Below the pieces are notes generated by a model that was not told the origin of the DNA, ran no database searches, and saw nothing but the letters and a program-made list of their open reading frames with translations. A program made the translations under genes and the position numbers. Shown here in pieces: positions 1 through 12,778 of a stretch of DNA of 37,034 bases; the stretch's first letter is position 1; every line of letters starts with the position of its first letter. The DNA comes from a virus, in the IMG/VR virus record IMGVR_UViG_3300023223_000759, positions 1 to 37,034 of that record. The stretch is one strand, 5' to 3'.

Positions 1-144
1 TTGCCACTATCGACTAATCCTTTTTTTTCTGGGTCGGTAAGTCCACTAAAGAATGTTTTATAAGCATCTATCCCTTTAGCGGCGCAATCCTTTCCGAGGT
101 CATATATTACGGCGGTCATGTCCTCTTCTTCTGGAACCACAATA
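1..144. repeat. Terminal direct repeat, left copy
   Basis: Bases 1-144 are identical to 36891-37034. The repeat lies inside a coding gene that stays open when the ends are joined. This suggests a circular or circularly permuted genome with overlapping contig ends rather than a functional terminal repeat. Unique length is then 36890 bp. Confidence 0.97.
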
Positions 145-560
145 TCCACGACTAACGGCTTTACATTATATAATATTCTCTTGCTTCTTGATGCTGATAA
201 AGGAATATTCATTTCTTTATCCATGTGGGACATATGACTAATTCTAATGCCGCCTACCTTTTTGCCCGCAAATATTACGTTTTGATCACCGTACAATGTC
301 AGAGATTTTCCTGTATATTTCACGGCATCCGGCCCCCATGCGCGAACCATAACGCGCCTCATACTTTTGCATGGCAGATACGGACGCCCATTGTCACCGT
401 CATAATGAACACTGACAGGCTGTTGATCGGTTGATTTTCCGGTGCTTGTTACTTTGGTTATGGTTATTGTTTTGCTGCCGGATACAAAATCTTCAAAATT
501 TTGTTGCTCTGATTTCGGCTCGATTGCCATATTGATGCGGTTTTGTTCTTGGATGGTCAT
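1..560 (-). CDS. Probable recombination partner protein, 5' part (gene continues across the join at 36890)
   Basis: Read leftward from the ATG at 560-558, through base 1 and on from 36890 to the stop at 36833, this is a 205-aa protein. The ATG overlaps the stop of the exonuclease gene (ATGA), so the two are translationally coupled. Conserved-looking blocks are GRPYLPCKSMRRVM (about residues 58-71) and GGIRISHMSHM (about 103-113). I recall this type of protein as a conserved unknown next to YqaJ/lambda-type exonucleases in phages. That position is the usual place for a single-strand annealing protein or ssDNA-binding protein. No Erf, RecT or Rad52 motif is recognisable, so a recombination role is inferred from context. 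The C-terminal third (about 145-205) is acidic and helical. Confidence 0.8.
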   Translation of the reverse strand, partial: MTIQEQNRINMAIEPKSEQQNFEDFVSGSKTITITKVTSTGKSTDQQPVSVHYDGDNGRPYLPCKSMRRVMVRAWGPDAVKYTGKSLTLYGDQNVIFAGKKVGGIRISHMSHMDKEMNIPLSASRSKRILYNVKPLVVDIVVPEEEDMTAVIYDLGKDCAAKGIDAYKTFFSGLTDPEKKGLVDSG

Positions 561-1273
561 ATCATCATCTCCGTTTCTATCTTCCTGCGAGGCGTCTGGG
601 TTAAGCGCGGATCGTTTGCCACGGCTTCCTCATATTTTTTCATATTCTCTTGTAAGGCACATTCGAATTCAATGGACGCTCCCTCTATTGCCTCTTGAAA
701 CTTCTCAATTGGTTCAACGCGAATTGTCACCATCTGGTTACCGTTGCAGAAACTCACAAAATCGCACCATTCCCGGCCCGAAACAAATAAACCAGCCTGA
801 ATCTGCATCATGTATTCGCTCGGGATAATGTCATCGGTGCGGCCCGTGATGTGATCCAAGATTGTTTTTATCTGGTATTTCGGAACCCTGGATTTGACTT
901 CCAACAACCCATCATCGCCAACCAAGGCATCCGGGGAATATCCAATGGGAAAACCCAATGCGGTATTGATAATAAACCCGCAATATTTAGTTTCACGGTT
1001 ATATTCTTTGCCGTATTGCTGGACCGCATATGGTTCGTCTTCGTGGCCCCGCATCATGTCAAATGACATATAGTTCGGATATATGGTTTCGTCGATGCGC
1101 TGCGATAATATTTCATCATAGAAAAGTCTGGTATTTGCAGCCGCCGAAAGTTTGAGGGTTTTCTCGGTTATGACGTTTTTAAAGACACTGGCGGACAATA
1201 TGCCGTGTTTAAGACGGAGCCACTCATCTGTACCTTGGGTTATGTCGTAATAGTATTTTATTTCATCGGTCAT
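557..1273 (-). CDS. YqaJ/lambda-exonuclease-type recombination nuclease
   Basis: A 238-aa protein of the PD-(D/E)XK viral recombinase family (YqaJ/lambda exonuclease). Visible motifs are QGTDEW at 13-18, a SAS block at 27-29, GHEDEPYA at 76-83, and the metal-binding core YSPDAL (D115) followed by LLEVKS (E125, K127). MQIQAGLFVSG near 156-166 matches the helix after the core. Such enzymes resect double-stranded ends to give 3' tails for single-strand annealing, and normally work with a partner encoded next door. Here the stop overlaps the ATG of the 205-aa partner candidate, and its own ATG overlaps the stop of the gene at 1270. Length is normal for the family and all catalytic residues are present. 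Expected use: recombination and concatemer formation for headful packaging. Confidence 0.93.
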   Translation of the reverse strand: MTDEIKYYYDITQGTDEWLRLKHGILSASVFKNVITEKTLKLSAAANTRLFYDEILSQRIDETIYPNYMSFDMMRGHEDEPYAVQQYGKEYNRETKYCGFIINTALGFPIGYSPDALVGDDGLLEVKSRVPKYQIKTILDHITGRTDDIIPSEYMMQIQAGLFVSGREWCDFVSFCNGNQMVTIRVEPIEKFQEAIEGASIEFECALQENMKKYEEAVANDPRLTQTPRRKIETEMMI

Positions 1274-1542
1274 CCGTCCAACCCCTTCGCTTTGGCAATA
1301 GCGGCCTGAATGATTTCCAATTCATGTTCTGCGCTGGCCCAACCCTTAAGCCACTTCTCGGCCTTTTCCAGAGCTTCCAGCATGTCGGGGGCGGCGGCTA
1401 TTAATTTGGCGTTGGCCAACGCTTGATTAAAATTATCATGGCAGGCACTTAAAATATCGTGATTAAGCTCTCGCGTTTCTGAGGCGGTCCCCACAAATGG
1501 CCCGTCTGCAACCCACGGCCCCGGAGTATATTTCTCACTCAT
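1270..1542 (-). CDS. Conserved phage protein of the 'TPGPW' type, unknown function
   Basis: A 90-aa protein beginning MSEKYTPGPW and carrying a central ANAKLIAAAPDMLEALE block, both typical of a widespread phage protein family of unknown function. An upstream in-frame ATG at 1554 exists. I chose 1542 because GGAAAAG precedes it at good spacing and because this ATG overlaps the stop of the small membrane gene at 1539 (ATGA). The C-terminal half is predicted helical and alanine-rich. It is coupled to the exonuclease gene through a second ATGA overlap at 1273. Confidence 0.82.
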   Translation of the reverse strand: MSEKYTPGPWVADGPFVGTASETRELNHDILSACHDNFNQALANAKLIAAAPDMLEALEKAEKWLKGWASAEHELEIIQAAIAKAKGLDG

Positions 1543-1670
1543 TTGCTTTTCCATTCAATTATTGCCTGATTGCCCGGTTCTACCATTGCAAAACATCCAA
1601 AGAGACCGCCGAAGAATACCGGGAACAGAAGCGCACCCCATATCATGTATTTGATAAATTCGCGGGTCAT
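1539..1670 (-). CDS. Small membrane protein, 43 aa
   Basis: Reads MTREFIKYMIWGALLFPVFF and onward, with a single hydrophobic segment of about 20 residues (about 8-30) and a short charged C-terminus ending EWKSK. AAGGA lies 6 bases before the ATG. The stop overlaps the next ATG (ATGA), and the stop of the YopX-like gene is one base upstream. Tight coupling on both sides argues it is real despite its size. No family is recognised. Confidence 0.72.
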   Translation of the reverse strand: MTREFIKYMIWGALLFPVFFGGLFGCFAMVEPGNQAIIEWKSK

Positions 1671-1671
1671 G

Positions 1672-2076
1672 TTAATTCCTTAACAGTTCGGGGTTTTCAT
1701 GGGTGTTGCCGATTACTTTACATTTATCAAGATTATATCTAGAAACATTATATTCACCTCGTTTGAATATCACAGGGACACGACCCATATAATTATATTT
1801 AACATCCAAAATATCCCCCTCATAAATATCAGTGCCGGTCTTGTCCTTTAAACCAGTGAATTGCTCGAGAGATATAATCTCAGCTTCTTCTGATCTTGTG
1901 TATTGCTCATGCTCACCGTTAACACACTCATCAATCAAGTGGTCGATATAGAATACAACCTTTCCATACTCAAAAGTAAGATGGCATTCATTGAAATCTT
2001 CTTTCGCGCCTGTTGACCATTTGCAAAGCTCATCATCCAACATTGCCCAAATTCTAAATTTAAGTTCTCTGCTCAT
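1672..2076 (-). CDS. YopX-family protein
   Basis: A 134-aa protein that opens MSRELKFRIW and carries EQFTGLKDKTGTDIYEGDIL at about residues 71-90. This is the signature of the YopX family, common in phages of many hosts and of unknown biochemical function. Its length is normal. The ATG overlaps the stop of the 86-aa gene upstream, and the start codon context (ATGAGC) is the one used throughout this arm. It probably belongs to the accessory part of the leftward transcript from the promoter at 2378-2406. Confidence 0.88.
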   Translation of the reverse strand: MSRELKFRIWAMLDDELCKWSTGAKEDFNECHLTFEYGKVVFYIDHLIDECVNGEHEQYTRSEEAEIISLEQFTGLKDKTGTDIYEGDILDVKYNYMGRVPVIFKRGEYNVSRYNLDKCKVIGNTHENPELLRN

Positions 2077-2333
2077 GATAATTTGTCCTCCGCTTCTTTT
2101 TCAACCATTGATGCCAACGAAATCATGTCAGTGCTTGCAAATTTACGTATGAAGACGTCCTTAAATTCGCCGTGACAGTCGATGCCATCGTTGCCAATAA
2201 CCTCAATATCATCCATCTGCCATTCCGCATCGTAATCGGCTGACATAGTTTCTGAAAACCGGGAGAAAGTTGCGTTTACGTCCCATGACGCGCCGGCATA
2301 ATGAAATGTGAAACTTGCTGTTTGTGTAATCAT
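2073..2333 (-). CDS. Hypothetical protein, 86 aa
   Basis: The open frame extends to 2387, but the ATG at 2333 is preceded by AGGATAAG at good spacing. The longer start would lie at or upstream of the predicted -10 element, so 2333 is preferred. The sequence starts MITQTASFTFHYAGASWDVN and looks beta-rich in its first half, with a helical acidic tail. It is the first leftward gene after the 2378-2406 promoter. No family is recognised. Confidence 0.72.
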   Translation of the reverse strand: MITQTASFTFHYAGASWDVNATFSRFSETMSADYDAEWQMDDIEVIGNDGIDCHGEFKDVFIRKFASTDMISLASMVEKEAEDKLS

Positions 2334-2377
2334 AATCTTATCCTGTGTGTTGTGAGATTTTCCGTTCTCATAAGAAA

Positions 2378-2406
2378 ACAATAGCAAGATACTTGTTCAG
2401 TGTCAA
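2378..2406 (-). promoter_or_regulatory. Leftward sigma70-type promoter
   Basis: On the minus strand: TTGACA (2406-2401, perfect -35), a 17-bp spacer, then TATTGT (2383-2378, 4 of 6). It sits 45 bp upstream of the ATG at 2333 and is the strongest promoter match in the window. It would serve the YopX, exonuclease and recombination genes and read on across the join. Confidence 0.72.
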
Positions 2407-2460
2407 CAACAAACTTGACTTAAATAAAGTTTTTAATTACATTGTCCATGTTAGAAACAT
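2393..2460. promoter_or_regulatory. Candidate operator region with three inverted repeats
   Basis: Three palindromes lie between the divergent genes: TTGTT-7-AACAA (2393-2409, over the leftward -35), AAACTT-10-AAGTTT (2411-2432, over the rightward -35 and spacer) and ATGTT-AGA-AACAT (2448-2460, near the regulator start). They differ in sequence, so not all need bind the same protein. The product of the gene at 2477 is the obvious candidate ligand. Confidence 0.5.
2415..2443 (+). promoter_or_regulatory. Rightward promoter for the HTH regulator
   Basis: TTGACT (2415-2420), 17-bp spacer, TACATT (2438-2443, 4 of 6). It lies back to back with the leftward promoter, the -35 boxes being 8 bp apart, and 34 bp upstream of the regulator ATG. 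An inverted repeat spans the spacer. Confidence 0.6.
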
Positions 2461-2476
2461 TTAAGGAAACGGCTTT

Positions 2477-2683
2477 ATGACAAAAACACAGAAGATATTG
2501 GTTAAGTTGAAACAGAGGCTTGTCGGATGTCGGCTATCGTTCGCCGATCTTTCCCGATGTTCTGGCATTACTGAAGGCGCAATTTCGAGGGGCTTTAATG
2601 GAAAGACTCTGGCCATGAAGCCCGAAATATTGGAATTGCTTAAACTGAAAACTGACGAATTAACCCAACATAAAAAGGGGTAA
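2477..2683 (+). CDS. Small Cro/CI-type HTH regulator
   Basis: A 68-aa basic protein and the only rightward gene in the left arm. A helix-turn-helix is visible at about residues 20-45 (FADLSRCSGITEGAISRGFN), in the place and pattern of Xre/Cro DNA-binding domains. There is no dimerisation or cleavage domain like that of full CI repressors, so it is closer to Cro or a single-domain repressor. AAGGAAAC precedes the ATG. It is transcribed divergently from the leftward operon with palindromes between, so it probably represses one or both promoters. Whether it supports lysogeny cannot be told: no integrase was found. Confidence 0.78.
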   Translation: MTKTQKILVKLKQRLVGCRLSFADLSRCSGITEGAISRGFNGKTLAMKPEILELLKLKTDELTQHKKG

Positions 2684-2694
2684 TCTGTAATAGG

Positions 2695-3084
2695 TTATTT
2701 CGTTAAATTATACCGGTGCATTATGTCTATGAAATCATCCAGGTTATCAACTATGTAATAGGGCTGGTTTAATGCCTCAACACGGTCCTGAAAAACAATT
2801 TGCGCATCTGACTGGACGCCTCCGCGCTGGTCAACTATTTTCTTTCCGCGCTTACCCATTTTGTAAGTTGTCGGGCGCTTTACTTCAATATAGAGATTAA
2901 TCAGACCGCCGTCATTCCAGACAAATATTAAATCACTCACACCATCAAGTAGCCCTGTAGCCTTAAGCCCGCCCATATTGTGAACAGGGTTTCTCTCATT
3001 CGGGGTTGACCAATAAACAACATCGGGCTTAATTTGCCACGCACACCATTGGATGATTGATTTTTGGACATCGCTTTCTTTCAT
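2695..3084 (-). CDS. VRR-NUC domain nuclease
   Basis: A 129-aa protein of the VRR-NUC branch of the PD-(D/E)XK nucleases. GVSDLIF at 48-54 gives the catalytic Asp (D51), IEVKRP at 66-71 gives Glu67 and Lys69, and QSDAQ at 91-95 is the usual C-terminal motif. Members act on branched DNA or as structure-specific nucleases, so a role in resolving replication or recombination intermediates before packaging is likely. An upstream GTG at 3105 is in frame, but the ATG at 3084 overlaps the stop of the 25-aa peptide gene (ATGA), which fits the coupling seen throughout this arm. Confidence 0.88.
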   Translation of the reverse strand: MKESDVQKSIIQWCAWQIKPDVVYWSTPNERNPVHNMGGLKATGLLDGVSDLIFVWNDGGLINLYIEVKRPTTYKMGKRGKKIVDQRGGVQSDAQIVFQDRVEALNQPYYIVDNLDDFIDIMHRYNLTK

Positions 3085-3158
3085 ATCGCCGCTACCCACA
3101 CCCACACCACGAAAAAGACCACTATCAGGGTTATAAAACTGTGATTATGTCTATGCAT
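3081..3158 (-). CDS. Tiny membrane peptide, 25 aa
   Basis: Reads MHRHNHSFITLIVVFFVVWV then WVAAI: a short His-rich N-terminus and one hydrophobic helix. AAGGAAAG lies 5 bases before the ATG and the stop overlaps the nuclease ATG. It may act as a leader that couples translation, as a membrane-active peptide, or both. Called from context; no family is known. Confidence 0.58.
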   Translation of the reverse strand: MHRHNHSFITLIVVFFVVWVWVAAI

Positions 3159-3216
3159 CGTCTTTCCTTATAAAATATGCAGGAGCTAAATCGCCAAACT
3201 TGCCCCCGCTAGGTGA

Positions 3217-3253
3217 TCACAACATCTGCTTTAGGGTTGGTTTAATGTTGTGA
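3217..3253. repeat. 9-bp inverted repeat / stem-loop in an intergenic gap
   Basis: TCACAACAT (3217-3225) and ATGTTGTGA (3245-3253) are perfect complements with a 19-base loop. The palindrome GTGATCAC (3213-3220) overlaps its left arm. It lies in the 107-bp gap 3159-3265, which has no credible gene. There is no T-run, so an operator or mRNA stem-loop is more likely than a terminator. Confidence 0.55.
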
Positions 3254-3265
3254 GTTTTATGGTCG

Positions 3266-3511
3266 TCACAGTTTATCTCCGTCAATTGAAATAATATCGC
3301 TCCAAGGATATTGGCTTTTGTCATCCGTTACGATTCTGTTCGCGCACAGTCTTGTCATGGTGCTTGCTATTGTTTGATTTGCAGATGCCTCAAAACATGA
3401 AAACCGTTTATGTAGCCGTAACACGCTTAGAACAGCCTCGTCATTGGCTTGGTCTTTTCCGCTTAAATCATCAATACCTACTGAAAAGCTATCTACATGA
3501 ACCACGCTCAT
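3266..3511 (-). CDS. Hypothetical protein, 81 aa, with PWSDIIS C-terminus
   Basis: The frame is open to 3568, but the ATG at 3511 has GGAGAAAC in front and overlaps the stop of the 41-aa gene (ATGA). The middle is helical (QTIASTMTRLCANRIVTDD), followed by YPWSDIIS close to the end. The 111-aa protein at 5931 ends with a similar PWNDIIS block, so the two may share a C-terminal module. Function unknown. Confidence 0.72.
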   Translation of the reverse strand: MSVVHVDSFSVGIDDLSGKDQANDEAVLSVLRLHKRFSCFEASANQTIASTMTRLCANRIVTDDKSQYPWSDIISIDGDKL

Positions 3512-3633
3512 CTTAGTTTCTCCAAATCCGCAATAAGATCTGCTATTGAATATTCTTTTCCAACCCAAACATATTTATTGAATTGAGGATTTTTCCCTTT
3601 GAGCTTACGAATAATTATTTGTAAATCACTCAT
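3508..3633 (-). CDS. Hypothetical protein, 41 aa
   Basis: Begins MSDLQIIIRKLKGKNPQFNK and ends LADLEKLR. AAGGAACTC precedes the ATG. Its ATG overlaps the stop of the gene at 3630 and its stop overlaps the ATG of the gene at 3266, so it fits exactly between two neighbours. A small basic-to-acidic helical protein of unknown role. Confidence 0.68.
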   Translation of the reverse strand: MSDLQIIIRKLKGKNPQFNKYVWVGKEYSIADLIADLEKLR

Positions 3634-3815
3634 CTTTGAGTTCCTTTATATTTTTTCATAAGTTGTTTTTTGGCAATCTTCATAGCCTCAATATGCCACC
3701 GTTTATAATCAGGATAAAAAATATTTGTGGTATGATTATCGCAGGGCAAGTTACGGAGACAAAGCGTGTATATCTCTTTTAAAGTATTGCGGAGATCATT
3801 CTCACGATTGCTCAT
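3630..3815 (-). CDS. Hypothetical protein, 61 aa
   Basis: A basic protein with three cysteine or histidine positions scattered in the middle (CLRNLPCDNHTT). The start ATGAGCAAT overlaps the stop of the gene at 3812. The junction CAAAACAAATGAGCAAT is nearly the same as the junctions at 3997 and 4382. The tail is Lys-rich. No family recognised. Confidence 0.72.
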   Translation of the reverse strand: MSNRENDLRNTLKEIYTLCLRNLPCDNHTTNIFYPDYKRWHIEAMKIAKKQLMKKYKGTQR

Positions 3816-3997
3816 TTGTTTTGGCCTTTTAATATTTCCCTAATGTCAAAAACATCGGATTCCTGTGCTGCGTCATCTATTATCTTTTCAAGACGTTCAA
3901 TTTCATCCGCCGCATTAAATAACCACCTAATATATTTATGAATAGATATATGGTTACCAAGTGCCACACTCCGTAAGTTATCTACAAAATTACTCAT
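3812..3997 (-). CDS. Hypothetical protein, 61 aa
   Basis: The frame extends to 4069, but the upstream part lies in another gene (3994-4134). The ATG at 3997 overlaps that gene's stop and follows GAGGCAAGACAA. The protein begins MSNFVDNLRSVALGNHISIH and contains an acidic helix (ADEIERLEKIIDDAAQ), possibly a short coiled coil. Unknown role. Confidence 0.7.
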   Translation of the reverse strand: MSNFVDNLRSVALGNHISIHKYIRWLFNAADEIERLEKIIDDAAQESDVFDIREILKGQNK

Positions 3998-4134
3998 TTG
4001 TCTTGCCTCGCAATTTCCTGTTTTGATATCTTGTGCTTTAGTCTGGAGAGCTTTTTCACGATGCACCATTCTTTCCAGCGGCCCTCATAAATACATCCCG
4101 GCCCATGCCCTTTACCTTTGGGTTTCCCGCTCAT
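3994..4134 (-). CDS. Hypothetical basic protein, 46 aa
   Basis: Starts MSGKPKGKGHGPGCIYEGRW and continues with a Lys/Arg-rich helix ending EIARQDK. Two tryptophans, two cysteines and the basic tail would suit a nucleic-acid or protein-binding mini-protein. GGAGAAAC precedes it, and TAATG joins it to the upstream gene. Its last codons and the next start share the CAAGACAAATGAG junction found again at 4382. Unknown function. Confidence 0.65.
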   Translation of the reverse strand: MSGKPKGKGHGPGCIYEGRWKEWCIVKKLSRLKHKISKQEIARQDK

Positions 4135-4382
4135 TAGTGTTTCTCCACGAATTGGTTTAAAATCTTCTCATCGAAGAAATGCGGCGAAGGCCAACCCCCA
4201 AATTCGGCTTGCAAATTAAGGCTGGTCACGAATTGACGAAGCTCTGATAATACATCAAACTTTTCACCACCGATTCTTCCGAGAAGATACTTTTCAAGGT
4301 TTTCGCTGTCCTGAAAGCATGTGCTACATTCGGGGTCATCACATATTTTATGATGCTGTACTGGTGAGGTTAAATTGCTCAT
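4134..4382 (-). CDS. Hypothetical protein, 82 aa, Cys/His N-terminus
   Basis: Start at 4382 chosen because this ATG overlaps the stop of the gene at 4379 and follows GTGGGATCAAGACAA; the longer frame to 4397 would add five residues. The N-terminus carries HHKICDDPECSTCFQ, a spacing that could bind zinc. The rest is helical (VLSELRQFVTSLNLQAEF). Unknown role. Confidence 0.7.
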   Translation of the reverse strand: MSNLTSPVQHHKICDDPECSTCFQDSENLEKYLLGRIGGEKFDVLSELRQFVTSLNLQAEFGGWPSPHFFDEKILNQFVEKH

Positions 4383-4654
4383 TTGTCTTGATCCCACTGG
4401 ATAGTCAATTTTTCGTCACGAATTTCGACAGCCCTAATATTTTTCATAGATATTTGTATGAAAGAATTATCTTCTTGTTTGTCAATATGATGCGATGTAG
4501 TTCCAAGCCCGACATCATTAAGGGCGTTTAAAAGAGGAATAGCTTTTTTATTAGCTACAAATTTATTGCCGCCAATTTCGACCACTTTATGACTATTTGT
4601 TAATTCGTGATGGTGGTTGCACCATACGTATTCTTTTGAAGGCTTGGTGCTCAT
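4379..4654 (-). CDS. Hypothetical phage protein, 91 aa
   Basis: Starts MSTKPSKEYVWCNHHHEL. The middle part (ALNDVGLGTTSHH) and the C-terminal strand-rich part (ISMKNIRAVEIRDEKLTIQW) resemble a small conserved phage protein family of unknown function that I cannot name. Its last codons overlap the next start through the CAAGACAAATGAG junction. The Cys-His cluster near residues 12-16 might bind metal. Confidence 0.74.
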   Translation of the reverse strand: MSTKPSKEYVWCNHHHELTNSHKVVEIGGNKFVANKKAIPLLNALNDVGLGTTSHHIDKQEDNSFIQISMKNIRAVEIRDEKLTIQWDQDK

Positions 4655-4662
4655 TAAAAAAC

Positions 4663-4755
4663 CTATCCTATATGTGAAAGAATTGGCGCTATGATGAACG
4701 CGGCAACCGCCGCCGACACTAACGCCACAAATATTATTGATTTAATCATGCTCAT
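4663..4755 (-). CDS. Tiny membrane peptide, 30 aa
   Basis: Reads MSMIKSIIFVALVSAAVAAF and continues IIAPILSHIG: one strongly hydrophobic helix after a short positive N-terminus. GGAGATTT precedes the ATG, which shares one base with the stop of the gene at 4755 (TAATG). It fills the only gap of this size in the array. Could be a membrane-active or host-interaction peptide; no homolog is known to me. Confidence 0.62.
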   Translation of the reverse strand: MSMIKSIIFVALVSAAVAAFIIAPILSHIG

Positions 4756-5030
4756 TAGTATAAATCTCCTTCTGATACATGTTTAAACCATTCTACTTCT
4801 TTTCGGATGTAAGACCACTCAGAAAGTAGGGCGTCTTTATTCACGGTATTGACAACATCCGGCACCATGTCCGTTGCCTGGAATACGCCATTAGAGATTT
4901 TAACTGATGTTATATATTCAATATGAGGATGGGTAGGCAAAGCATTAAGCCATTTTTCAATCTCATCCAACTTTTTTGATATATAAATATTAGCTTCTTC
5001 ATAAAATTCTTTCTGGGTTCTGTCGCTCAT
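4755..5030 (-). CDS. Hypothetical protein, 91 aa
   Basis: Begins MSDRTQKEFYEEANIYISKK; the N-terminal half is an acidic helix and the C-terminal half has ALLSEWSYIRKEVEWF. ATG overlaps the stop of the upstream gene by one base (TAATG). No family recognised; soluble, acidic. Confidence 0.75.
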   Translation of the reverse strand: MSDRTQKEFYEEANIYISKKLDEIEKWLNALPTHPHIEYITSVKISNGVFQATDMVPDVVNTVNKDALLSEWSYIRKEVEWFKHVSEGDLY

Positions 5031-5197
5031 TAGAAATTCCCATAACTTCTGTTGTCTTGTTGAAAATGTTTACGGTCGGCTTCTCGCTGCATTACCTCAC
5101 GCTTGTAGCTGTCCCAAGTATCAACCTCTTTTTGTGCAGCATCGATTACACGCTCAAGCCATTCAGCATTGCCGCTCGTCTTCGTGTTGTCAGTCAT
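5030..5197 (-). CDS. Hypothetical protein, 55 aa
   Basis: Start taken at 5197 (MTDNTKTSGNAEWLERVIDA) because GCGGAGTT precedes it; the longer start at 5215 lies well inside the upstream gene. Charged and helical throughout, with a KREVMQREADRKHFQQ segment. It overlaps the upstream gene by 8 bases. Unknown role. Confidence 0.66.
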   Translation of the reverse strand: MTDNTKTSGNAEWLERVIDAAQKEVDTWDSYKREVMQREADRKHFQQDNRSYGNF

Positions 5198-5423
5198 TTG
5201 GAAACTCCGCTTCACATTTTAAAATTTGAAAAACTTCTTCACGTAACTTGTGCGCAAAGCCGTGTATTATTTCTCCTTGTCCTTCCATCCCCACAACCCT
5301 AAGCCGCTCTCCGTGGCTGTGCATCTCTGCAACAAGCGAATTGAGAAAATTAATACTTGCTTTAAACGCAACTTCTTTTGTTGCGAATGGCAAGCGGTTA
5401 GGCACTGGGGGTATGATGCTCAT
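5190..5423 (-). CDS. Hypothetical protein, 77 aa
   Basis: Starts MSIIPPVPNRLPFATKEVAF, then mostly helical. ATG overlaps the stop of the gene at 5420. The junction (GGAGCAACTCAAATGAGC) matches that at 6266 except for one base. No family recognised. Confidence 0.74.
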   Translation of the reverse strand: MSIIPPVPNRLPFATKEVAFKASINFLNSLVAEMHSHGERLRVVGMEGQGEIIHGFAHKLREEVFQILKCEAEFPND

Positions 5424-5695
5424 TTGAGTTGCTCCATAATTTCATCTAATGATATGGTGGTTTCATCCGCCCCGGCCCGGTTATGAGATATGAGTTCTTC
5501 CAAAGAGTTGCTATAATAACAACTTGTCCCCTTCTTAATAGCTCTGTCAATCCGCGCATCAACTGGTACGGCGCTATATAAACTTCTATGACGTTCTCTC
5601 ATTTGTTTTTCAGTCATAGCATGAGAGACAGGAGCGTCAACTATTGAAGACCACATAAAAAAAACACCATCCTTGTGGCAAATAAATCTACCCAT
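5420..5695 (-). CDS. Hypothetical protein, 91 aa
   Basis: Start at 5695 (MGRFICHKDGVFFMWSSIVD) is supported by GGAGATAATA; the frame is open to 5746, but that part overlaps the upstream gene without a ribosome site. An N-terminal beta hairpin is followed by charged helices. It ends EIMEQLK, similar to the ILEQIK end of the 50-aa gene at 6263, and the DNA around these two stops is alike. Unknown role. Confidence 0.72.
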   Translation of the reverse strand: MGRFICHKDGVFFMWSSIVDAPVSHAMTEKQMRERHRSLYSAVPVDARIDRAIKKGTSCYYSNSLEELISHNRAGADETTISLDEIMEQLK

Positions 5696-5712
5696 TATTA
5701 TCTCCGCTCGTC

Positions 5713-5934
5713 TTATTTGTCGGCATTTTGTAATTCCTTTTTCCACAGTGGTCTAAAAAACCCTCCGCCATTATAAATCATCGGTGTTTCAAAGTTTTTG
5801 TAGCCTCTAAATTTTAAAATTAATGCACCAATAAAAGTCTGATGTGATGCGTATATCCAACGTTTGCCAAGATCATCAAAAGGTATCTTTGAAACCCTGA
5901 TCCCATTCTTTTCAAAGTACGGCTTCACGCTCAT
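5713..5934 (-). CDS. Hypothetical protein, 73 aa
   Basis: The ATG at 5934 overlaps the stop of the gene at 5931. Begins MSVKPYFEKNGIRVSKIPFD and is basic and aromatic-rich (GGGFFRPLWKKELQ near the end). Likely soluble; no family recognised. Confidence 0.7.
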   Translation of the reverse strand: MSVKPYFEKNGIRVSKIPFDDLGKRWIYASHQTFIGALILKFRGYKNFETPMIYNGGGFFRPLWKKELQNADK

Positions 5935-6266
5935 AAGTCTTTCCAATCCTGTTCTGAAATTATGTCATTCCAAGGTGACCAATCCACCCCGTCGGGTTCG
6001 TAATGGTCTTTCTCAACAACCGCCAAGCCTCGCAAAATAACCGATGCTTGATGTAGCAAATCCCTCTTATCGCTGTAGATTAAATCATCCCTAAATTCGC
6101 CTTTAAAACATGTAGTGAAGTTATCCTGCCCTACTGGCCTGTTTTTGCCGTTGTTTTCCCCACAACAAAAGAATGAATTAGGACTTTGTATCTTAGAGAG
6201 CGATCTACAATCATCACGACCTCTAGGGCAGTCATAAGGTATCTCCATTGTGAACTCGTCGCTCAT
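5931..6266 (-). CDS. Hypothetical protein, 111 aa, cysteine-bearing
   Basis: Start at 6266 (MSDEFTMEIPYDCPRG) follows TTGGAGCAAATCAA and overlaps the stop of the 50-aa gene. Cysteines at YDCPRGRDDC, FFCC and TTCFKG could form a metal site. The C-terminus carries SPWNDIIS, like the YPWSDIIS of the protein at 3266. Function unknown. Confidence 0.72.
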   Translation of the reverse strand: MSDEFTMEIPYDCPRGRDDCRSLSKIQSPNSFFCCGENNGKNRPVGQDNFTTCFKGEFRDDLIYSDKRDLLHQASVILRGLAVVEKDHYEPDGVDWSPWNDIISEQDWKDL

Positions 6267-6415
6267 TTGATTTGCTCCAAAATATCCCATAATTCCCACT
6301 CTCCAGCTAATGGCTCATCAGGAAATTCTTCTTTGTGTTTAAGTATTGCTGCCAAAAGCTGCCTTCTTTCGGCCTCATATCTCAGCAGCATGTCGTTCTG
6401 GCTTTCTATGCTCAT
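6263..6415 (-). CDS. Hypothetical protein, 50 aa
   Basis: Reads MSIESQNDMLLRYEAERRQL onward and ends LWDILEQIK: an acidic amphipathic helix likely to form a coiled coil. Both ends overlap neighbours by ATGA. It fills the only gap between 6266 and 6412 in this frame set, which supports it. Confidence 0.68.
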   Translation of the reverse strand: MSIESQNDMLLRYEAERRQLLAAILKHKEEFPDEPLAGEWELWDILEQIK

Positions 6416-6597
6416 TTTAATATTTCACTTTCCACAATAATCTCAAGATTTTTAACAATACCCATTGCCTGTGCTTTTGTTAGGTCTAAAAGTTCAGCGT
6501 GGGTTAAGTTATTTTTGTAAGCGAGGCGCATATTCATCTCGATTAATCTCGCATCGTGTAATGCGTCACCCAATCTTTCTTTAAGGTCGCCGCTCAT
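6412..6597 (-). CDS. Hypothetical protein, 61 aa
   Basis: Start at 6597 (MSGDLKERLGDALHDARLIE) after GTGGAACAC; the upstream in-frame ATG at 6615 overlaps the preceding stop without a ribosome site. All-helical. Unknown role. Confidence 0.7.
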   Translation of the reverse strand: MSGDLKERLGDALHDARLIEMNMRLAYKNNLTHAELLDLTKAQAMGIVKNLEIIVESEILK

Positions 6598-6611
6598 CTT
6601 AGTGTTCCACT

Positions 6612-6944
6612 TCAATTAAATTTCACCGGTAAGGCTTTCTCATCTTCACTTACAACGAACTCTATAACCGCCCCCTTTGAGCCAGGCCATATAATAAAAC
6701 GAGAATTACCTAGTAACTCAATACGGTTGATATGGGCTCCGCTTCCAATAATTACTAACCCGTCTTTGATGGCAATTTTATCAGCATGCCCATTTTCCAA
6801 TATTTCCACTACATTATCACCAAGATAATCATGTAGCACTAAAGCAAATTTAGCCCAAGATTCTTTTTCTTTTAAAGCCGATTGTAACTTACAATTTCTA
6901 ACGGGTTTGTTATTATTTATAAATTCTCTGATTTTAGTAAACAT
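6612..6944 (-). CDS. Hypothetical protein, 110 aa
   Basis: Start at 6944 (MFTKIREFINNNKPVRNCKL) follows AAGGAATA and overlaps the previous stop (TAATG). The middle part is strand-rich with repeated Ile/Val-Gly steps (AIKDGLVIIGSGAHINRIEL, then RFIIWPGSKGAVIEFVV), suggesting a small beta domain. No family recognised. Confidence 0.74.
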   Translation of the reverse strand: MFTKIREFINNNKPVRNCKLQSALKEKESWAKFALVLHDYLGDNVVEILENGHADKIAIKDGLVIIGSGAHINRIELLGNSRFIIWPGSKGAVIEFVVSEDEKALPVKFN

Positions 6945-7150
6945 TATTCCTTCCCTTTCAATTCTGAAATATCCCCACAAGAATTACACCTTGTTTCCGT
7001 TTCACGCATAATACCATCTTTAATTTCGATATTACCTGTCGTAACGTCGTCAGAGCCACATTTTGAGCAACGGAAATTAATATCTGTATCGCTGATGCGA
7101 ACGTCTGCCCCGCAATTTTCTGTTTTAAGACTTCCTATATTTATAGTCAT
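6944..7150 (-). CDS. Small zinc-ribbon-like protein, 68 aa
   Basis: Two CxxC pairs, FRCSKCGSDD and TRCNSCGD, spaced about 26 residues apart, form a zinc-ribbon pattern. Such mini-proteins often bind DNA, RNA polymerase or other proteins, but no specific partner can be named. The ATG at 7150 has AAGGA 9 bases upstream; starts at 7159 and 7168 are also open. It directly follows the degenerate recombinase gene. Confidence 0.75.
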   Translation of the reverse strand: MTINIGSLKTENCGADVRISDTDINFRCSKCGSDDVTTGNIEIKDGIMRETETRCNSCGDISELKGKE

Positions 7151-7151
7151 G

Positions 7152-7670
7152 TCATTCATTCCTTTCATGTTGGATGTTTAAATATTTACCATTAACAATC
7201 TTGCTAACGGCTGTTGTGCTTACTCCAAAGTGTTTGGCAGCGGCCTTTTGTGGATTTCCTTCATTCACATAATCAATGATCTTTGCAGCCTTGGCCGGCA
7301 ACACTTTCTTTTTGCGGCCTTTCAGCACACCATTCATTTTCTCTGCTTGGGATATATCATCAAGCCCTTGCGCAGCCGGGAGACTTGGGACACAGTCTAT
7401 GGTTAGATCGCGCCGCAAAATATGTAGGGATGCCCCAACTTTTGCCAGTCTCTTTATAGTGCTGCTGTACCGCACTCGGCCAATAACAGCCGCCGACCAC
7501 ACAACAAGCTCGTCTCCCTCACTATAGCATGATTTAATGGCCTCCTCGAAGCCATCAGCATCGGTATCGCTGTATATGTGTTCAGAACTGAGGCCATATT
7601 TAATTAATGCGTCGGTTTGCTCTTTAAGACTAAATACGTTTGCGCGGGTTTGAATGTAACCAATTTTCAC
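7152..7670 (-). CDS. Degenerate serine-recombinase (resolvase-like) protein with C-terminal HTH, probable regulator
   Basis: A 172-aa protein with the fold pattern of resolvase/invertase N-terminal domains (IGYIQTRANVFSLKEQ at 3-18, EGDELVVW at 51-58) and a C-terminal HTH (AAAKHFGVSTTAVSKIVNGK at about 143-162). The catalytic serine of the family, in the usual YARVS motif, is replaced: here the motif reads YIQTR. The usual KLDRLGRS is SAAVIGRV, losing the first conserved arginine. It should therefore be unable to cut DNA. As first gene of the leftward arm, beside a 29-bp palindrome, it looks like a DNA-binding regulator made from a recombinase. I chose the GTG at 7670 because AAGGTGA lies ahead of it; a GTG at 7679 is the alternative. 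Confidence 0.8.
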   Translation of the reverse strand: MKIGYIQTRANVFSLKEQTDALIKYGLSSEHIYSDTDADGFEEAIKSCYSEGDELVVWSAAVIGRVRYSSTIKRLAKVGASLHILRRDLTIDCVPSLPAAQGLDDISQAEKMNGVLKGRKKKVLPAKAAKIIDYVNEGNPQKAAAKHFGVSTTAVSKIVNGKYLNIQHERNE

Positions 7671-7695
7671 TTTTTTCACCTTTTTTAAAATAAGC

Positions 7696-7724
7696 TATTG
7701 CAATTGAAACTACGTTATGCAATA
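7696..7724. promoter_or_regulatory. 29-bp palindrome, candidate operator between the two arms
   Basis: TATTGCA (7696-7702) and TGCAATA (7718-7724) are perfect complements 15 bp apart. This spacing suits a dimeric DNA-binding protein such as the neighbouring resolvase-like product. Confidence 0.55.
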
Positions 7725-7735
7725 AACTAAGTCAA
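7707..7735 (-). promoter_or_regulatory. Possible leftward early promoter
   Basis: TTGACT at 7735-7730, 17-bp spacer, TAGTTT at 7712-7707 (3 of 6). The -35 is good and the -10 weak. The palindrome at 7696-7724 covers the -10 and spacer, so binding there would block it. No clear rightward promoter could be fixed in the same gap (7671-7791), though one is expected for the gene at 7792. Confidence 0.4.
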
Positions 7736-7791
7736 GCGAAAAACGAAATGAAATATTAAAACGCCCAATAGCGGCATATAGGAGAAGACAG

Positions 7792-8177: not shown

Positions 8178-8384
8178 ATGAAGATAGATATAAAAGAAGC
8201 GGTCAAATCTGATGTGATGTTCCTCCATTACCGTGATGGTAATCTTTGGTACAGAACAAACCGTGACGAGCAGTTCCCCGTACCCATTAGTGATGTGGGA
8301 AATGCGACCTTTAATGCCAGAGATAGGGGCATCTTGTTTATGCGATATATGCGTAAATGGAATGCACAACAAGAATCAATTTAA
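8178..8384 (+). CDS. Conserved small phage protein, 68 aa
   Basis: The pattern FLHYRDGNLWYRTNRDEQFP followed by PISDVGNATF and FMRYMRKW matches a small protein often seen in phage early regions; function unknown. It looks like a compact beta-hairpin domain. The ribosome site is weak (GGCTACCC). It sits between two copies of the AACGCCCG leader element. Confidence 0.8.
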   Translation: MKIDIKEAVKSDVMFLHYRDGNLWYRTNRDEQFPVPISDVGNATFNARDRGILFMRYMRKWNAQQESI

Positions 8385-8400
8385 ACGCCCGATTGCGGGC
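8380..8400 (+). promoter_or_regulatory. AAACGCCCG leader hairpin upstream of 8414
   Basis: TTTAAACGCCCG (8380-8391), where GCCCG pairs with CGGGC (8396-8400) over a 4-base loop, ending at the ribosome site AGGAG. The same 12-base sequence recurs at 8683-8694, with weaker forms at 7755 and 8153. Confidence 0.6.
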
Positions 8401-8674: not shown

Positions 8675-8682
8675 TTAATAAT

Positions 8683-8702
8683 TTTAAACGCCCGGAAACG
8701 GG
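8683..8702 (+). promoter_or_regulatory. AAACGCCCG leader hairpin after 8674
   Basis: TTTAAACGCCCG again; CCCG (8691-8694) and CGGG (8699-8702) close a GAAA tetraloop. It starts the 137-bp gap before the GcrA-like gene. Confidence 0.55.
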
Positions 8703-8724
8703 TTAATGAGTCCGCTACGGTGGG

Positions 8725-8783: not shown

Positions 8784-8811
8784 AATAATTTTAACCGCTA
8801 GGAGACAGAAC

Positions 8812-9225
8812 ATGGCTTGGACTGACCAACAAATAACAGAATTAAAAACCCTTATCCTGGATAAACATACTTTCACGGAAATTGCCAACAAACTCGGGAA
8901 AACTAAAAACGCGATTGCCGGCAAGTGTCATAGATTGGATCTCACATCCATATCTGGGGCAGAATTCCCAATAAGCCACGGACAACCTAAGATATTTATT
9001 AAGGCTGACAAGATGGTGTTATGCCAAATAAAAAAATATACGGATCAGCATGGTTGGGGTTTGGAAATTTCTGAAATCGTTGAATATACAAAACTTCCTT
9101 TCAGAATTGTGACCCGGGCCGTTAAGAGATTAATGAAGTCCGGGCGTATCAACAAGACCATAAGCCACGTTGCCGGGCATATTTTTTACAATAATGCATC
9201 GGTTAAACAAATTGGAGGGGAATGA
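8812..9225 (+). CDS. GcrA-like N-terminal domain fused to a winged-helix domain
   Basis: A 137-aa protein. Residues 1-45 (MAWTDQQITELKTLILDK, then TKNAIAGKCHRLDL) match the DNA-binding N-terminus of GcrA, the alphaproteobacterial cell-cycle regulator that works with sigma70 at promoters affected by adenine methylation. Cellular GcrA has a different C-terminus; here residues 68-127 look like a winged helix (EISEIVEYTKLPFRIVTRAV). AGGAG precedes the ATG. The next gene is an adenine methyltransferase, with only one base between stop and start. It may steer host RNA polymerase to phage promoters or interfere with host GcrA; both are inference. It is also the best pointer to an alphaproteobacterial host. 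Confidence 0.78.
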   Translation: MAWTDQQITELKTLILDKHTFTEIANKLGKTKNAIAGKCHRLDLTSISGAEFPISHGQPKIFIKADKMVLCQIKKYTDQHGWGLEISEIVEYTKLPFRIVTRAVKRLMKSGRINKTISHVAGHIFYNNASVKQIGGE

Positions 9226-9226
9226 A

Positions 9227-9874
9227 ATGAACATACACGACCCCATAACATCCGAAGATGACCCGCGCTTTATCAGTGCGAAGAACGGCATCCTCGAAAT
9301 GGCTCAGAATAGGCCCGCTGGTGGCTATAACGTGATTTATGCGGATTACCCTTGGTTATATGAGAATTGGTCAAGCAAGGGTGCTGACAGAGGCGCATTG
9401 AAGCAATATCCGTGTATGAGCATTGAATTACTTTATAAGTTGCCTGTAGGGGCGCTTGCTTCAAATAATTGCGTTTTTCTCATGTGGTGTACGTGGCCGA
9501 TGATTTTTCATGCTGAGAGCGTTATTGAATCGGCAGGCTTTAAGTATTCCGGACTCGGTTGGGAATGGATCAAGAAAAATCCGGAGACAGGTAAGTTCGC
9601 TTTTGGCGGTGGGTATGGGACAAGAAAGAATTTGGAACCTTGCCTGATCTCGCGCAAGGGAAAGCCGTTTCTTAAATCGCGGTCCGAGAGGGATTTCTTA
9701 TTCGCACCAAGGCGTGAACACAGCCGGAAACCGTTTGAGGCATACGAGAAGATAGAACGCATGTATGATGGGCCCTATATCGAGCTTTTTGGACGCAATA
9801 AGCGCGAAGGGTGGGATGTGTTCGGGAATGAGATTGAAAAATTTGTTGACGAACAACAGGAATCAGGATTATAA
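9227..9874 (+). CDS. MT-A70 family DNA N6-adenine methyltransferase
   Basis: A 215-aa MT-A70 protein. The catalytic motif is DYPW (residues 40-43), a variant of the family's DPPW, and is followed by ENWSSKG. FLMWCTWPM (84-92), REHSRKP (163-169) and YIELFGR (184-190) are the other family blocks, the last being the SAM-pocket strand. The start at 9227 is fixed by GGAGGGG; the open frame reaches 9170 but that part lies in the upstream gene. It probably methylates adenine in phage DNA for protection from restriction or to mark promoters. Proline to tyrosine in the motif could lower activity, though Asp, Pro and Trp remain. Confidence 0.92.
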   Translation: MNIHDPITSEDDPRFISAKNGILEMAQNRPAGGYNVIYADYPWLYENWSSKGADRGALKQYPCMSIELLYKLPVGALASNNCVFLMWCTWPMIFHAESVIESAGFKYSGLGWEWIKKNPETGKFAFGGGYGTRKNLEPCLISRKGKPFLKSRSERDFLFAPRREHSRKPFEAYEKIERMYDGPYIELFGRNKREGWDVFGNEIEKFVDEQQESGL

Positions 9875-9973: not shown

Positions 9974-10138
9974 ATGAATAAAATTACCCAAATACCGACA
10001 GAAAAGACCATGGAAGAGCTTTGGTCTGACTATGTTAAAAAATCAAAACTTGCTCAAGATACCTTGTCTTTAAAGGATGGATTAGAAGCTCGTAGGTCGT
10101 GGATTAGGTTCATGGGGGAATTTAATGATGACAGATGA
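9974..10138 (+). CDS. Small conserved phage protein, 54 aa
   Basis: Starts MNKITQIPTEKTMEELWSDY; helical. AGGAG lies 8 bases before the ATG at 9974, which decides it over upstream ATGs at 9944, 9953 and 9968. Similar proteins (W-DY-AQ-TL--G--A---W-RF pattern) are found in phage early regions next to replication genes; function unknown. It overlaps the helicase start by 14 bases. Confidence 0.74.
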   Translation: MNKITQIPTEKTMEELWSDYVKKSKLAQDTLSLKDGLEARRSWIRFMGEFNDDR

Positions 10139-11573
10139 AAACCCGCCGATGGAAGATCCGCGCTTTGAGGTGCAGATCCTTCCTCATAATCTGGAAGCAG
10201 AGCAAGCCCTCTTGGGTGCCGTGTTGGTCAATAACCTGGCCATGGAAAGAATAATTGATTTCCTTGAGCCTAAGCATTTTGTAAATCCTGCCCACCAAGA
10301 TATTTATGCGGAATGTATTAAACAGTTTTCAGGAAATAAGAAATTTTCTCCTATTACATTCAGCAATAAATTTAAAGATCACCTGGGATTAAAAGAAGTA
10401 GGCAGCGCTGTATATTTGTCTAGGTTGTCCACCGCGGCAATCAGTATTGTCAATACTCCTGAATATGGTCAGCTCATCCATGATTTAGCCGTGCGCAGGA
10501 TGGTTATTGAGGCCGCACAGACGGCTTCTCTGGCCGCTTATGATACTTCTGACAAAACAGGTAGTGAAATTGTCGAGGAGACACAGCAGGCCCTTCAAGG
10601 GATGCATAGTGCCGAAAGTCTGGGCGAGGAATTGCTTCATATTTCCGAGGGCATTGACGAAGAACTTGCGGATATTATTGATGGGATTGAAAACGGTATA
10701 AAATTAAGCGGTATAACCACCGGCTTAAAGGGTTTGGACGCCAAGACCGGCGGCATGGGAGATGGCCAAGTTTGGATACTTGCTGGACGCCCAGGTATGG
10801 GGAAAACAGCGTTGGCACTGAATATATCGAAAGGTGCTTGTAGGGCTGGTTATACCGGAGCTTTTTTTTCCATCGAAATGCAAGGCCCGGAATTGCGCGA
10901 ACGCATGGTTTCAGATTTAATTTATAATTCACATAACCCAATAAAATATTTTGATATTAGAAATCGGAAAGTCGATAAATCGCAGATATACAGATTGAGG
11001 GAAGGTTTCGATGATATGAAAAAAATGCCTTTGTTTATCTCTGATCGTGGCGGGACAACTGTTGAAAGTATTCGCCGGGAAACGCGCCGGCTTAACAGGT
11101 CGCTTCCTGGGGACAAGACTATTGATTTTATGGTTATTGATTATTTACAGCTTATGCAGGGCTCCAATCGCCAGCAACTGAATAGAACTTTGGAGATTAG
11201 TGAAATCACCGGGGCATTAAAGCGTCTGGCCAAGGAACTGAAAATTCCCATCCTTCTTTTGTCGCAATTAAATCGAAGGTTGGAAATGAGGGATGATAAG
11301 CGACCAATCATGTCAGACCTGCGCGATAGCGGGTCTATTGAACAGGATGCCGACACAATAATATTTGTTTATCGGGAACATCATTATATTAAAGACCGCG
11401 AACCCAAAAAAGACCCTGAACAGTGGGCGGATCGAGTGGAAAGATGTGAGAATAAAATCGACCTGATCGTGTCCAAGCAACGGCGCGGCCCAACAGGCAC
11501 GGTGAAGCTGGATGTTTATTTGCACTCGAATGCCGTGCGTGATGGGCTTAATGATAGATTGAATGGTGTGTGA
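10125..11573 (+). CDS. dnaB: DnaB-family replicative helicase
   Basis: A 482-aa protein with full DnaB architecture. The N-terminal helical domain (about 18-120, beginning LPHNLEAEQALLGAVL) is followed by a linker and a RecA-like motor domain. Walker A is GRPGMGKT (221-228), Walker B is MVIDYLQL (336-343), SQLNR is at 380-384 and the arginine-finger region is KQRRGPTG (451-458). It unwinds DNA ahead of the host polymerase. No phage primase or polymerase is present, so host DnaG and Pol III are presumably used. The 291-aa protein downstream is the likely initiator or loader. GGGGGAA precedes two adjacent ATGs (10125 and 10128). Length is normal and there is no intein. Confidence 0.97.
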   Translation: MMTDENPPMEDPRFEVQILPHNLEAEQALLGAVLVNNLAMERIIDFLEPKHFVNPAHQDIYAECIKQFSGNKKFSPITFSNKFKDHLGLKEVGSAVYLSRLSTAAISIVNTPEYGQLIHDLAVRRMVIEAAQTASLAAYDTSDKTGSEIVEETQQALQGMHSAESLGEELLHISEGIDEELADIIDGIENGIKLSGITTGLKGLDAKTGGMGDGQVWILAGRPGMGKTALALNISKGACRAGYTGAFFSIEMQGPELRERMVSDLIYNSHNPIKYFDIRNRKVDKSQIYRLREGFDDMKKMPLFISDRGGTTVESIRRETRRLNRSLPGDKTIDFMVIDYLQLMQGSNRQQLNRTLEISEITGALKRLAKELKIPILLLSQLNRRLEMRDDKRPIMSDLRDSGSIEQDADTIIFVYREHHYIKDREPKKDPEQWADRVERCENKIDLIVSKQRRGPTGTVKLDVYLHSNAVRDGLNDRLNGV

Positions 11574-11902: not shown

Positions 11903-12778
11903 ATGGCAGGAAAATATTTTTTACATATCAAATCTTGGGAAGAAGGCACCGAGGAATTAAACCTTGAGCAAGAGGCCTTTTATCTCCGATTAATCAACCT
12001 CATGTATCGCTATGATGGTGCTCTCCCAGACAATGATCAGCTACTCCATTTTAAGACCCGAACATCAATGAGAATGTTCCGGAGATTGAAAAAAGAACTC
12101 CTAGATAGAGAGAAAATATTTGAAGAAAATGGCCTCTTGATGAACATTAAAGTGAATTTAGAATTGGAACAGATTAATTTAAAATCAATCAAAAATGCAA
12201 CTGCTGCAAAACTAAAACACAACAAATATAAAACTAAACTCGCAAACTCAAAGGCTAAATCATTGAAAAACAACGATAATGGTTCTGCGAACGCACAGCG
12301 AACGCTCTGCATAGACCCCTGCGAAACGCCTGCGATACAGGGGAACAGGGGAACAGGAGATAAAGAAAAAAACATACAAAAAGATTTTGATGAATTTTGG
12401 AATACATGCCTGAGAAAAGAGGCAAAGTCCCAATCCTTCATCAACTACAAAAAAGCCCGTAAAGAATCGAGTAAAGAAATTATCCACAAATCCATGATAG
12501 CGTATTCCCATAAATGTGTAACCGAGAATACCGAAACCAGATATATTAAAAAACCAAACAACTGGCTCACTGCTGAAATGTATCTCGATCAACTGGAATC
12601 ATCTGCTGAGCAAATAAACCATACCGACAAAGGTTGGCAAGTCGTCGTTAAAAAATACCAGCAGACCGGCAAATGGTACGACGAATGGGGGCCACAACCA
12701 GATATGCCCGGAACCAGAGTTCCCCAACCCATCCTGAACGAAAACGGATTTAACCCAACAACGGAGGCAGGAAAATGA
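11903..12778 (+). CDS. DUF1376-type replication initiator / helicase loader
   Basis: A 291-aa protein. Residues 1-90 (MAGKYFLHIKSWEEGTEELN, then EAFYLRLINLMYRYDGALP) match the DUF1376 winged-helix domain common in phage replication proteins. A low-complexity basic linker (about 95-150) follows, and then a C-terminal helical region (FDEFWNTCLRKEAKSQSFIN, ending in ETRYIKKPNNWLTAEMY) typical of O-like initiators. It sits directly after the helicase, as lambda O and P are adjacent, so it probably binds the origin and loads DnaB. The DNA coding for the linker is A-rich and then carries short repeats that may themselves be the origin. The start has a weak ribosome site. Confidence 0.85.
   Translation: MAGKYFLHIKSWEEGTEELNLEQEAFYLRLINLMYRYDGALPDNDQLLHFKTRTSMRMFRRLKKELLDREKIFEENGLLMNIKVNLELEQINLKSIKNATAAKLKHNKYKTKLANSKAKSLKNNDNGSANAQRTLCIDPCETPAIQGNRGTGDKEKNIQKDFDEFWNTCLRKEAKSQSFINYKKARKESSKEIIHKSMIAYSHKCVTENTETRYIKKPNNWLTAEMYLDQLESSAEQINHTDKGWQVVVKKYQQTGKWYDEWGPQPDMPGTRVPQPILNENGFNPTTEAGK
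12288..12357. other. Candidate replication origin inside the initiator gene
   Basis: A cluster of short repeats: GCGAACGC twice, CTGCGAA twice, and CAGGGGAA twice followed by CAGG, with CCCCTG (12316-12321) complementary to CAGGGG (12338-12343 and 12346-12351). An A-rich run at about 12180-12285 lies just upstream. Iterons beside an AT-rich segment within the initiator gene is the lambda arrangement. The repeats are short, so the call is tentative. Confidence 0.4.

Follow-up and report, generated by a model that had tools for sequence, protein, structure and literature searches.

The 37,034-base window analysed here, which is an entire IMG/VR virus record, encodes a 137-residue protein (8812..9225, +; ATG start, stop TGA at 9223-9225) that combines a GcrA-type DNA-binding domain with a probable winged helix and has no sigma-interacting domain. 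We hypothesize, with a probability of roughly 0.4, that it is an early-operon regulator that uses the GcrA DNA-binding domain to address GcrA-type sites without recruiting sigma70. The phage probably infects an alphaproteobacterium, and the domain would most likely bind the same kind of sites as the host GcrA (GANTC, possibly CcrM-methylated), because it is homologous to that domain and keeps its near-invariant residues. The sigma2-binding domain appears to have been lost, with the probable winged helix in its place, so recruitment of sigma70 polymerase in the GcrA manner is probably impossible. More likely, it simply binds GcrA-type sites of the phage or the host, as a repressor or competitor there. 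For the adjacent methyltransferase, the best reading is a common orphan MT-A70 enzyme of phages that would be co-expressed, and not a proven writer for the GcrA-type protein. We place this reading first because the DNA-binding domain is well kept, the GANTC bias is the one seen in hosts with GcrA and CcrM, and the nearest relative of the methyltransferase lacks such a partner. Overall, the locus is an interesting rearrangement of known parts and not a proven methylation switch.

The GcrA-type (homeodomain-like) domain occupies residues 1-46 (8812..8949, +). PF07750 matches these residues at 6.7e-8 and 33.5 bits (cut-off 26.9), solved GcrA chains in the PDB match the protein at 1.3e-6 (5yiu, the DNA-binding domain of Caulobacter GcrA) and 2e-6, and an HMM built from 66 viral GcrA DNA-binding domains gives 66.9 bits; as judged from sequence, these matches are far above chance. 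The residues that are near-invariant in aligned viral GcrAs (W3, L11, I24, N33, A34, G37, K38, H40 and R41) are all kept. An AlphaFold model computed with 17 aligned sequences has a pLDDT of about 96 over the domain (the single-sequence model of the protein is poor, pLDDT 44), and by structural alignment with VIA-align its best match is 5yiu (Z 8.3, rmsd 0.8 over 44 residues), with 7ye1 next and other Myb-like and transposase helix-turn-helix (HTH) domains after it at Z about 7. Foldseek alone returned no match to the model with E below 0.001. Since the alignment behind the model included GcrA sequences, the structural match is confirmation rather than independent proof. A sequence-only reading of this locus had placed a GcrA-type domain at the N-terminus and expected residues 1-45 to resemble GcrA in structure; both expectations are borne out, by the above-cut-off profile match with its conserved residues and by the GcrA domain being the top structural match.

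Beyond this domain the resemblance to GcrA stops. In cellular GcrA, a flexible linker joins the DNA-binding domain (residues 1-45) to the sigma-interacting domain (residues 108-173; PMC7403470). The GcrA profile match in the 137-residue protein ends at profile position 47 of 155, a Cys/His-rich C-terminal pattern found in 53 distinct viral GcrA proteins is absent from it, and the NCBIfam equivalog model NF050816 scores it at 34.2 bits against a cut-off of 280. By these sequence measures, the missing sigma-interacting domain and an equivalog score far under the cut-off, it is not a GcrA, and the sigma70-dependent methylation sensing once suggested for it is not supported. The GcrA-type HTH can be regarded as a reusable module, since viruses also encode it without a sigma domain in short stand-alone proteins and in phosphoesterase-like fusions of Lactobacillus phages.

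Residues from about 64 to 126 (9001..9189, +) probably form a winged helix-turn-helix. The evidence is weak: profile matches to RPA_C (0.0012) and MarR (0.0079), both under the curated cut-offs, a match to phrog_1687 (0.002), and a low-confidence model in which residues 51-137 stay poor even with 17 sequences. Where the protein had been described as a GcrA-type domain joined to a new winged helix, the fusion to a different C-terminal part holds; the winged helix itself, with its sub-cut-off profiles and poor model, is weakly supported. No relatives reaching past residue 62 were found in the databases searched, one tblastn match spans an 80-residue stretch that runs into a canonical GcrA linker, and sequence searches of viral contigs, species genomes and plasmids detected no relatives of the entire protein beyond the HTH. 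The C-terminal half alone gave only chance matches when searched against phages.

Profile searches of the window indicate a P22-like phage, with a P22-type portal (7.6e-130) and terminases. Two arms diverge at 7,680-7,791, one leftward (about 1-7,680) and one rightward from 7,792. At the divergence point, 7152-7679 (-) encodes a possible phage repressor whose C-terminus weakly matches a resolvase/invertase-type HTH. In the rightward arm, the GcrA-type gene is preceded by a Shine-Dalgarno sequence AGGAG (8800..8804, +). Exactly one base separates its TGA from the ATG of the MT-A70 adenine methyltransferase gene (9227..9874, +; 215 residues), the tight adjacency noted in the initial reading, and the methyltransferase Shine-Dalgarno sequence GGAGGGG (9214..9220, +) lies within the 3' end of the GcrA-type gene. 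With the ribosome-binding site sitting in the upstream gene, translational coupling from the GcrA-type gene to the methyltransferase is plausible. Downstream are a small ORF (9974..10138, +), in the same place as a small ORF of Caulobacter phage DMCA, a DnaB replicative helicase (10125..11573, +; PF03796, 1e-78), for which DMCA is the second-best phage match (37%), and a DUF1376/primosomal-type protein (11903-12778). Together, the genes from the 137-residue ORF to the DUF1376 protein look like an early/replication operon. A 23-nt element (AATAATTTTAAACGCCCG...) occurs three times, at 8374-8396, 8677-8699 and 8784-8806, near the ends and starts of consecutive small genes, the third copy reaching into the GcrA-type gene's ribosome-binding site.

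The product of the methyltransferase gene, METHYLTRANSFERASE, matches PF05063 across the full length of the profile (1-172 of 172; 1.1e-18, 68.1 bits against a cut-off of 23.9) and phrog_359 at 2.4e-65, and has no separate target-recognition domain. The closest solved structures are Tetrahymena MTA1 entries 7f4r and 7f4l (7e-16, a distant similarity). Alignment places catalytic motif IV at 9344..9355 (+), where the enzyme has DYPW in place of DPPW or DPAW. Among 89 MT-A70 sequences including this one, 75 have DPPW, 9 have DPAW and 4 escaped the pattern, which makes DYPW unique to the window enzyme among the 85 readable motifs and a departure from the DPPW of active members. Membership in PF05063 does not need DPPW, as MTA9 is a member with NALW (PMC9852454). 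The substitution raises doubt about methyltransferase activity, which appears possible, because the Asp and Trp of the motif are kept, but not assured. M.EcoGII was considered as a model for the enzyme and set aside, as it is a beta-class enzyme whose paper does not mention MT-A70. A search of 50,697 phage records found MT-A70 relatives in 349. The closest one found (L002, 62% identical) follows a different upstream protein (phrog_2554), and the L002 record contains no GcrA match.

The window is depleted in GANTC to 0.42-0.45 of expectation. We counted 44 sites against 103.6 expected from a higher-order model (0.42), and of the 16 gapped palindromes tested GANTC alone stands clearly apart, the other 15 lying at 0.88-1.11. 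Dinucleotide shuffles give 139 +- 9 sites; within genes, codon-preserving shuffles give 89.3 +- 7.2 against 40 observed (z -6.8) and show CTNAG to be mildly depleted also (z -3.0). GATC, tried as an avoided site, was rejected for its normal count, with no depletion. The GANTC ratio is 0.46 in the L002 phage and 0.44 in Sinorhizobium phage phiLM21, its median over 32 viral loci that carry a GcrA-type gene and span 6 kb or more is 0.47, and an 11-kb stretch of Caulobacter phage DMCA has 6 sites against 17.7 expected. Five stretches of four gammaproteobacterial phages (T5, H6/1, AH02 and PVA1) show no depletion (0.90-1.36), and it is slight in two phages of Alphaproteobacteria, RcKemmy (0.81) and DSS3P8 (0.95). 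A depletion of GANTC by 2-fold or more has been reported for alphaproteobacterial genomes, with the caution that sequence biases of this kind can have other causes (PMC3973325). An alphaproteobacterial host is likely, if not proven, because the depletion in the window resembles that in those genomes, and it fits a host with CcrM and GcrA. Against such a host, the structural genes resemble those of gammaproteobacterial phages, the coat protein being 59% identical to that of Pseudoalteromonas phage H6/1. No portal relatives that could indicate a host were found in species genomes. GANTC depletion could be a useful host clue for unassigned phages. GANTC sites in the phage promoters are not supported: the 4,040 noncoding bases of the window contain 4 sites, which is no intergenic excess, and the region upstream of the GcrA-type gene contains a single one (GAGTC, 8708..8712, +).

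The pairing of a GcrA-type gene with an adenine methyltransferase gene ahead of DnaB has been annotated before with other domain choices, as read from the gene order of DMCA: GcrA, an HTH gene, an ORF, an adenine methyltransferase (PF01555), a small ORF and DnaB. GcrA and an adenine methyltransferase also lie within a few kilobases of each other in three viral loci (L018, L060 and L230). Co-occurrence with MT-A70 itself is rare. PF05063 was found in 2 of 37 virus records chosen for a GcrA-type gene, and a GcrA match in 2 of about 44 MT-A70 records, apart from one extra listed record that had been picked for its GcrA; many of the records are fragments. A dedicated phage reader/writer pair is not supported, given this scarcity and the closest MT-A70 relative without a GcrA-type partner. 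HTH genes lie directly upstream of MT-A70 in seven phage loci (L288, L291, L294, L306, L308, L178 and L230). In the first five, which are enterobacterial-type prophage loci, they overlap or abut the MT-A70 start and are candidate methyltransferase partners; the L306 protein has three HTH segments resembling the GcrA DNA-binding domain. Shortly after a full GcrA gene, L230 (4812-5788) has a gene for a LexA-type winged helix that extends into the start of a methyltransferase-like gene, whose motif is a degenerate DPPT. Pfam counts over 61 clusters of upstream neighbors and 50 clusters of downstream neighbors reveal no HTH enrichment upstream of MT-A70, and adjacency alone is weak evidence because HTH families are not visibly commoner on one side than on the other.

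A serious rival, which we consider somewhat improbable, is that the HTH protein is a nucleic-acid-targeting subunit that docks on the MT-A70 catalytic core and sets its DNA site or directs it to RNA, so that both genes together would make the writer. It owes its standing to two precedents, used here by analogy. The stronger is prophage phiPA8, in which an MT-A70 protein and the winged-HTH protein PNB-2, encoded by the adjacent upstream gene, form a 1:1 complex that is redirected to 16S rRNA (PMC10810198). The other is ciliate MTA1, the closest solved structure, which has no nucleic-acid-binding domain and needs the homeobox-like subunits p1 and p2 (PMC9852454). The small size of the window enzyme with its missing recognition domain, the one-base gap, together with a ribosome-binding site that falls within the upstream gene, and the HTH genes directly upstream of MT-A70 in the seven loci all fit a subunit role; the different upstream protein of the 62% relative, in a record devoid of a GcrA-type domain, the unremarkable Pfam counts and the doubtful activity implied by DYPW speak against it. 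A more specific version, in which the GcrA domain would steer the methyltransferase to host GcrA/CcrM sites or to phage copies of them and so rewrite the cell-cycle methylation code, is unlikely.

Less probable than the targeting-subunit explanation in its general form is a generic early DNA-binding regulator, broadly like T5 D5, with no link to methylation and an incidental methyltransferase neighbor. The neighbors of MT-A70 genes are indeed highly variable, the D5 gene of T5 immediately precedes D6, which encodes a DnaB-like helicase, and phrog_323, a profile of D5-like regulators, matches residues 2-117 at 4.4e-10. That profile is unspecific, however, with matches in 11 of 14 control genomes, and homology to T5 D5 was rejected after the alignment proved weak and permuted, with the D5 HTH at the C-terminus. 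The DNA-binding domain also resembles GcrA far more than it does other HTHs. The explanation with which this locus was first singled out, a switch in which promoters of the phage would be methylated by the MT-A70 enzyme and, once methylated, activated by the GcrA-type protein, is very improbable. The gene adjacency, the GcrA domain and the adenine-methyltransferase family are what such a switch would use, and GcrA near an adenine methyltransferase recurs in DMCA and the three loci above; yet the sigma-interacting domain is missing, MT-A70 lies outside the CcrM family, GANTC is not in excess between genes, PF05063 is scarce among GcrA-bearing records, the 62% relative has no partner, and the catalytic motif is DYPW. 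The early-operon regulator with a GcrA DNA-binding domain is the reading we prefer over these.

Phage-borne GcrA (PMC3556154, PMC6630229) and phage MT-A70 enzymes are known already. What is new, and was found nowhere else in the collections searched, is a GcrA DNA-binding domain joined to a probable winged helix and coupled to MT-A70. It has been proposed that GcrA homologues of phages drive the cell cycle of the host. A phage protein that keeps the GcrA DNA-binding domain alone would split site reading from sigma recruitment, and would be a natural tool for studying the function of that domain. If its role is instead to guide the methyltransferase, it would add a case with a GcrA domain to the architecture of MT-A70 plus DNA-binding partner that is represented by ciliates and one prophage, and if the steering version were true, the phage would rewrite the methylation code by which the host cell cycle is timed.

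Among known systems, Caulobacter GcrA (PF07750, NF050816; 5yiu, 7ye1) has an N-terminal domain like that of the window protein, the two being about 50% identical where the structures align (rmsd 0.8); the window protein differs in having neither the sigma-interacting C-terminus nor the long linker, and a probable winged-helix C-terminus of its own. Phage-encoded GcrAs (phiCbK gp222, Atu_ph08 gp5 and that of DMCA) are likewise phage genes with the GcrA DNA-binding domain. DMCA resembles the window in its order of GcrA, adenine methyltransferase, small ORF and DnaB, although its GcrA matches the Pfam profile over nearly the whole length, its methyltransferase belongs to PF01555 rather than MT-A70, and two genes lie in between. 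Lactobacillus phage proteins labelled as GcrA (BH1 gp54, by its published label, and JNU_P9) also join an N-terminal GcrA-type HTH to a different C-terminal domain, but that domain is metallophosphoesterase-like and the HTH is less GcrA-like (27 versus 33.5 bits). In JNU_P9 the fusion is encoded at 838-1986 of its record (L007), in a phage of a bacterial host outside the Alphaproteobacteria. A GcrA-type domain alone does not imply GcrA function, because it also occurs in these fusions, and automatic 'GcrA cell cycle regulator' labels on such proteins may mislead. T5 D5 (phrog_323) shares HTH and winged-helix-like segments and a gene position near a DnaB-like helicase, and differs in its domain order, weak similarity and unspecific profile. 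The ciliate MTA1 complex (MTA1, MTA9, p1 and p2) combines an MT-A70 catalytic protein with small homeobox-like DNA-binding proteins and includes the closest solved relatives of the window enzyme, but is a eukaryotic heterotetramer of distant sequence similarity. Finally, the phiPA8 MT-A70/PNB-2 holoenzyme has, as in the window, an HTH-type gene directly upstream of MT-A70, a likeness of gene layout that suggests a possible analogy.
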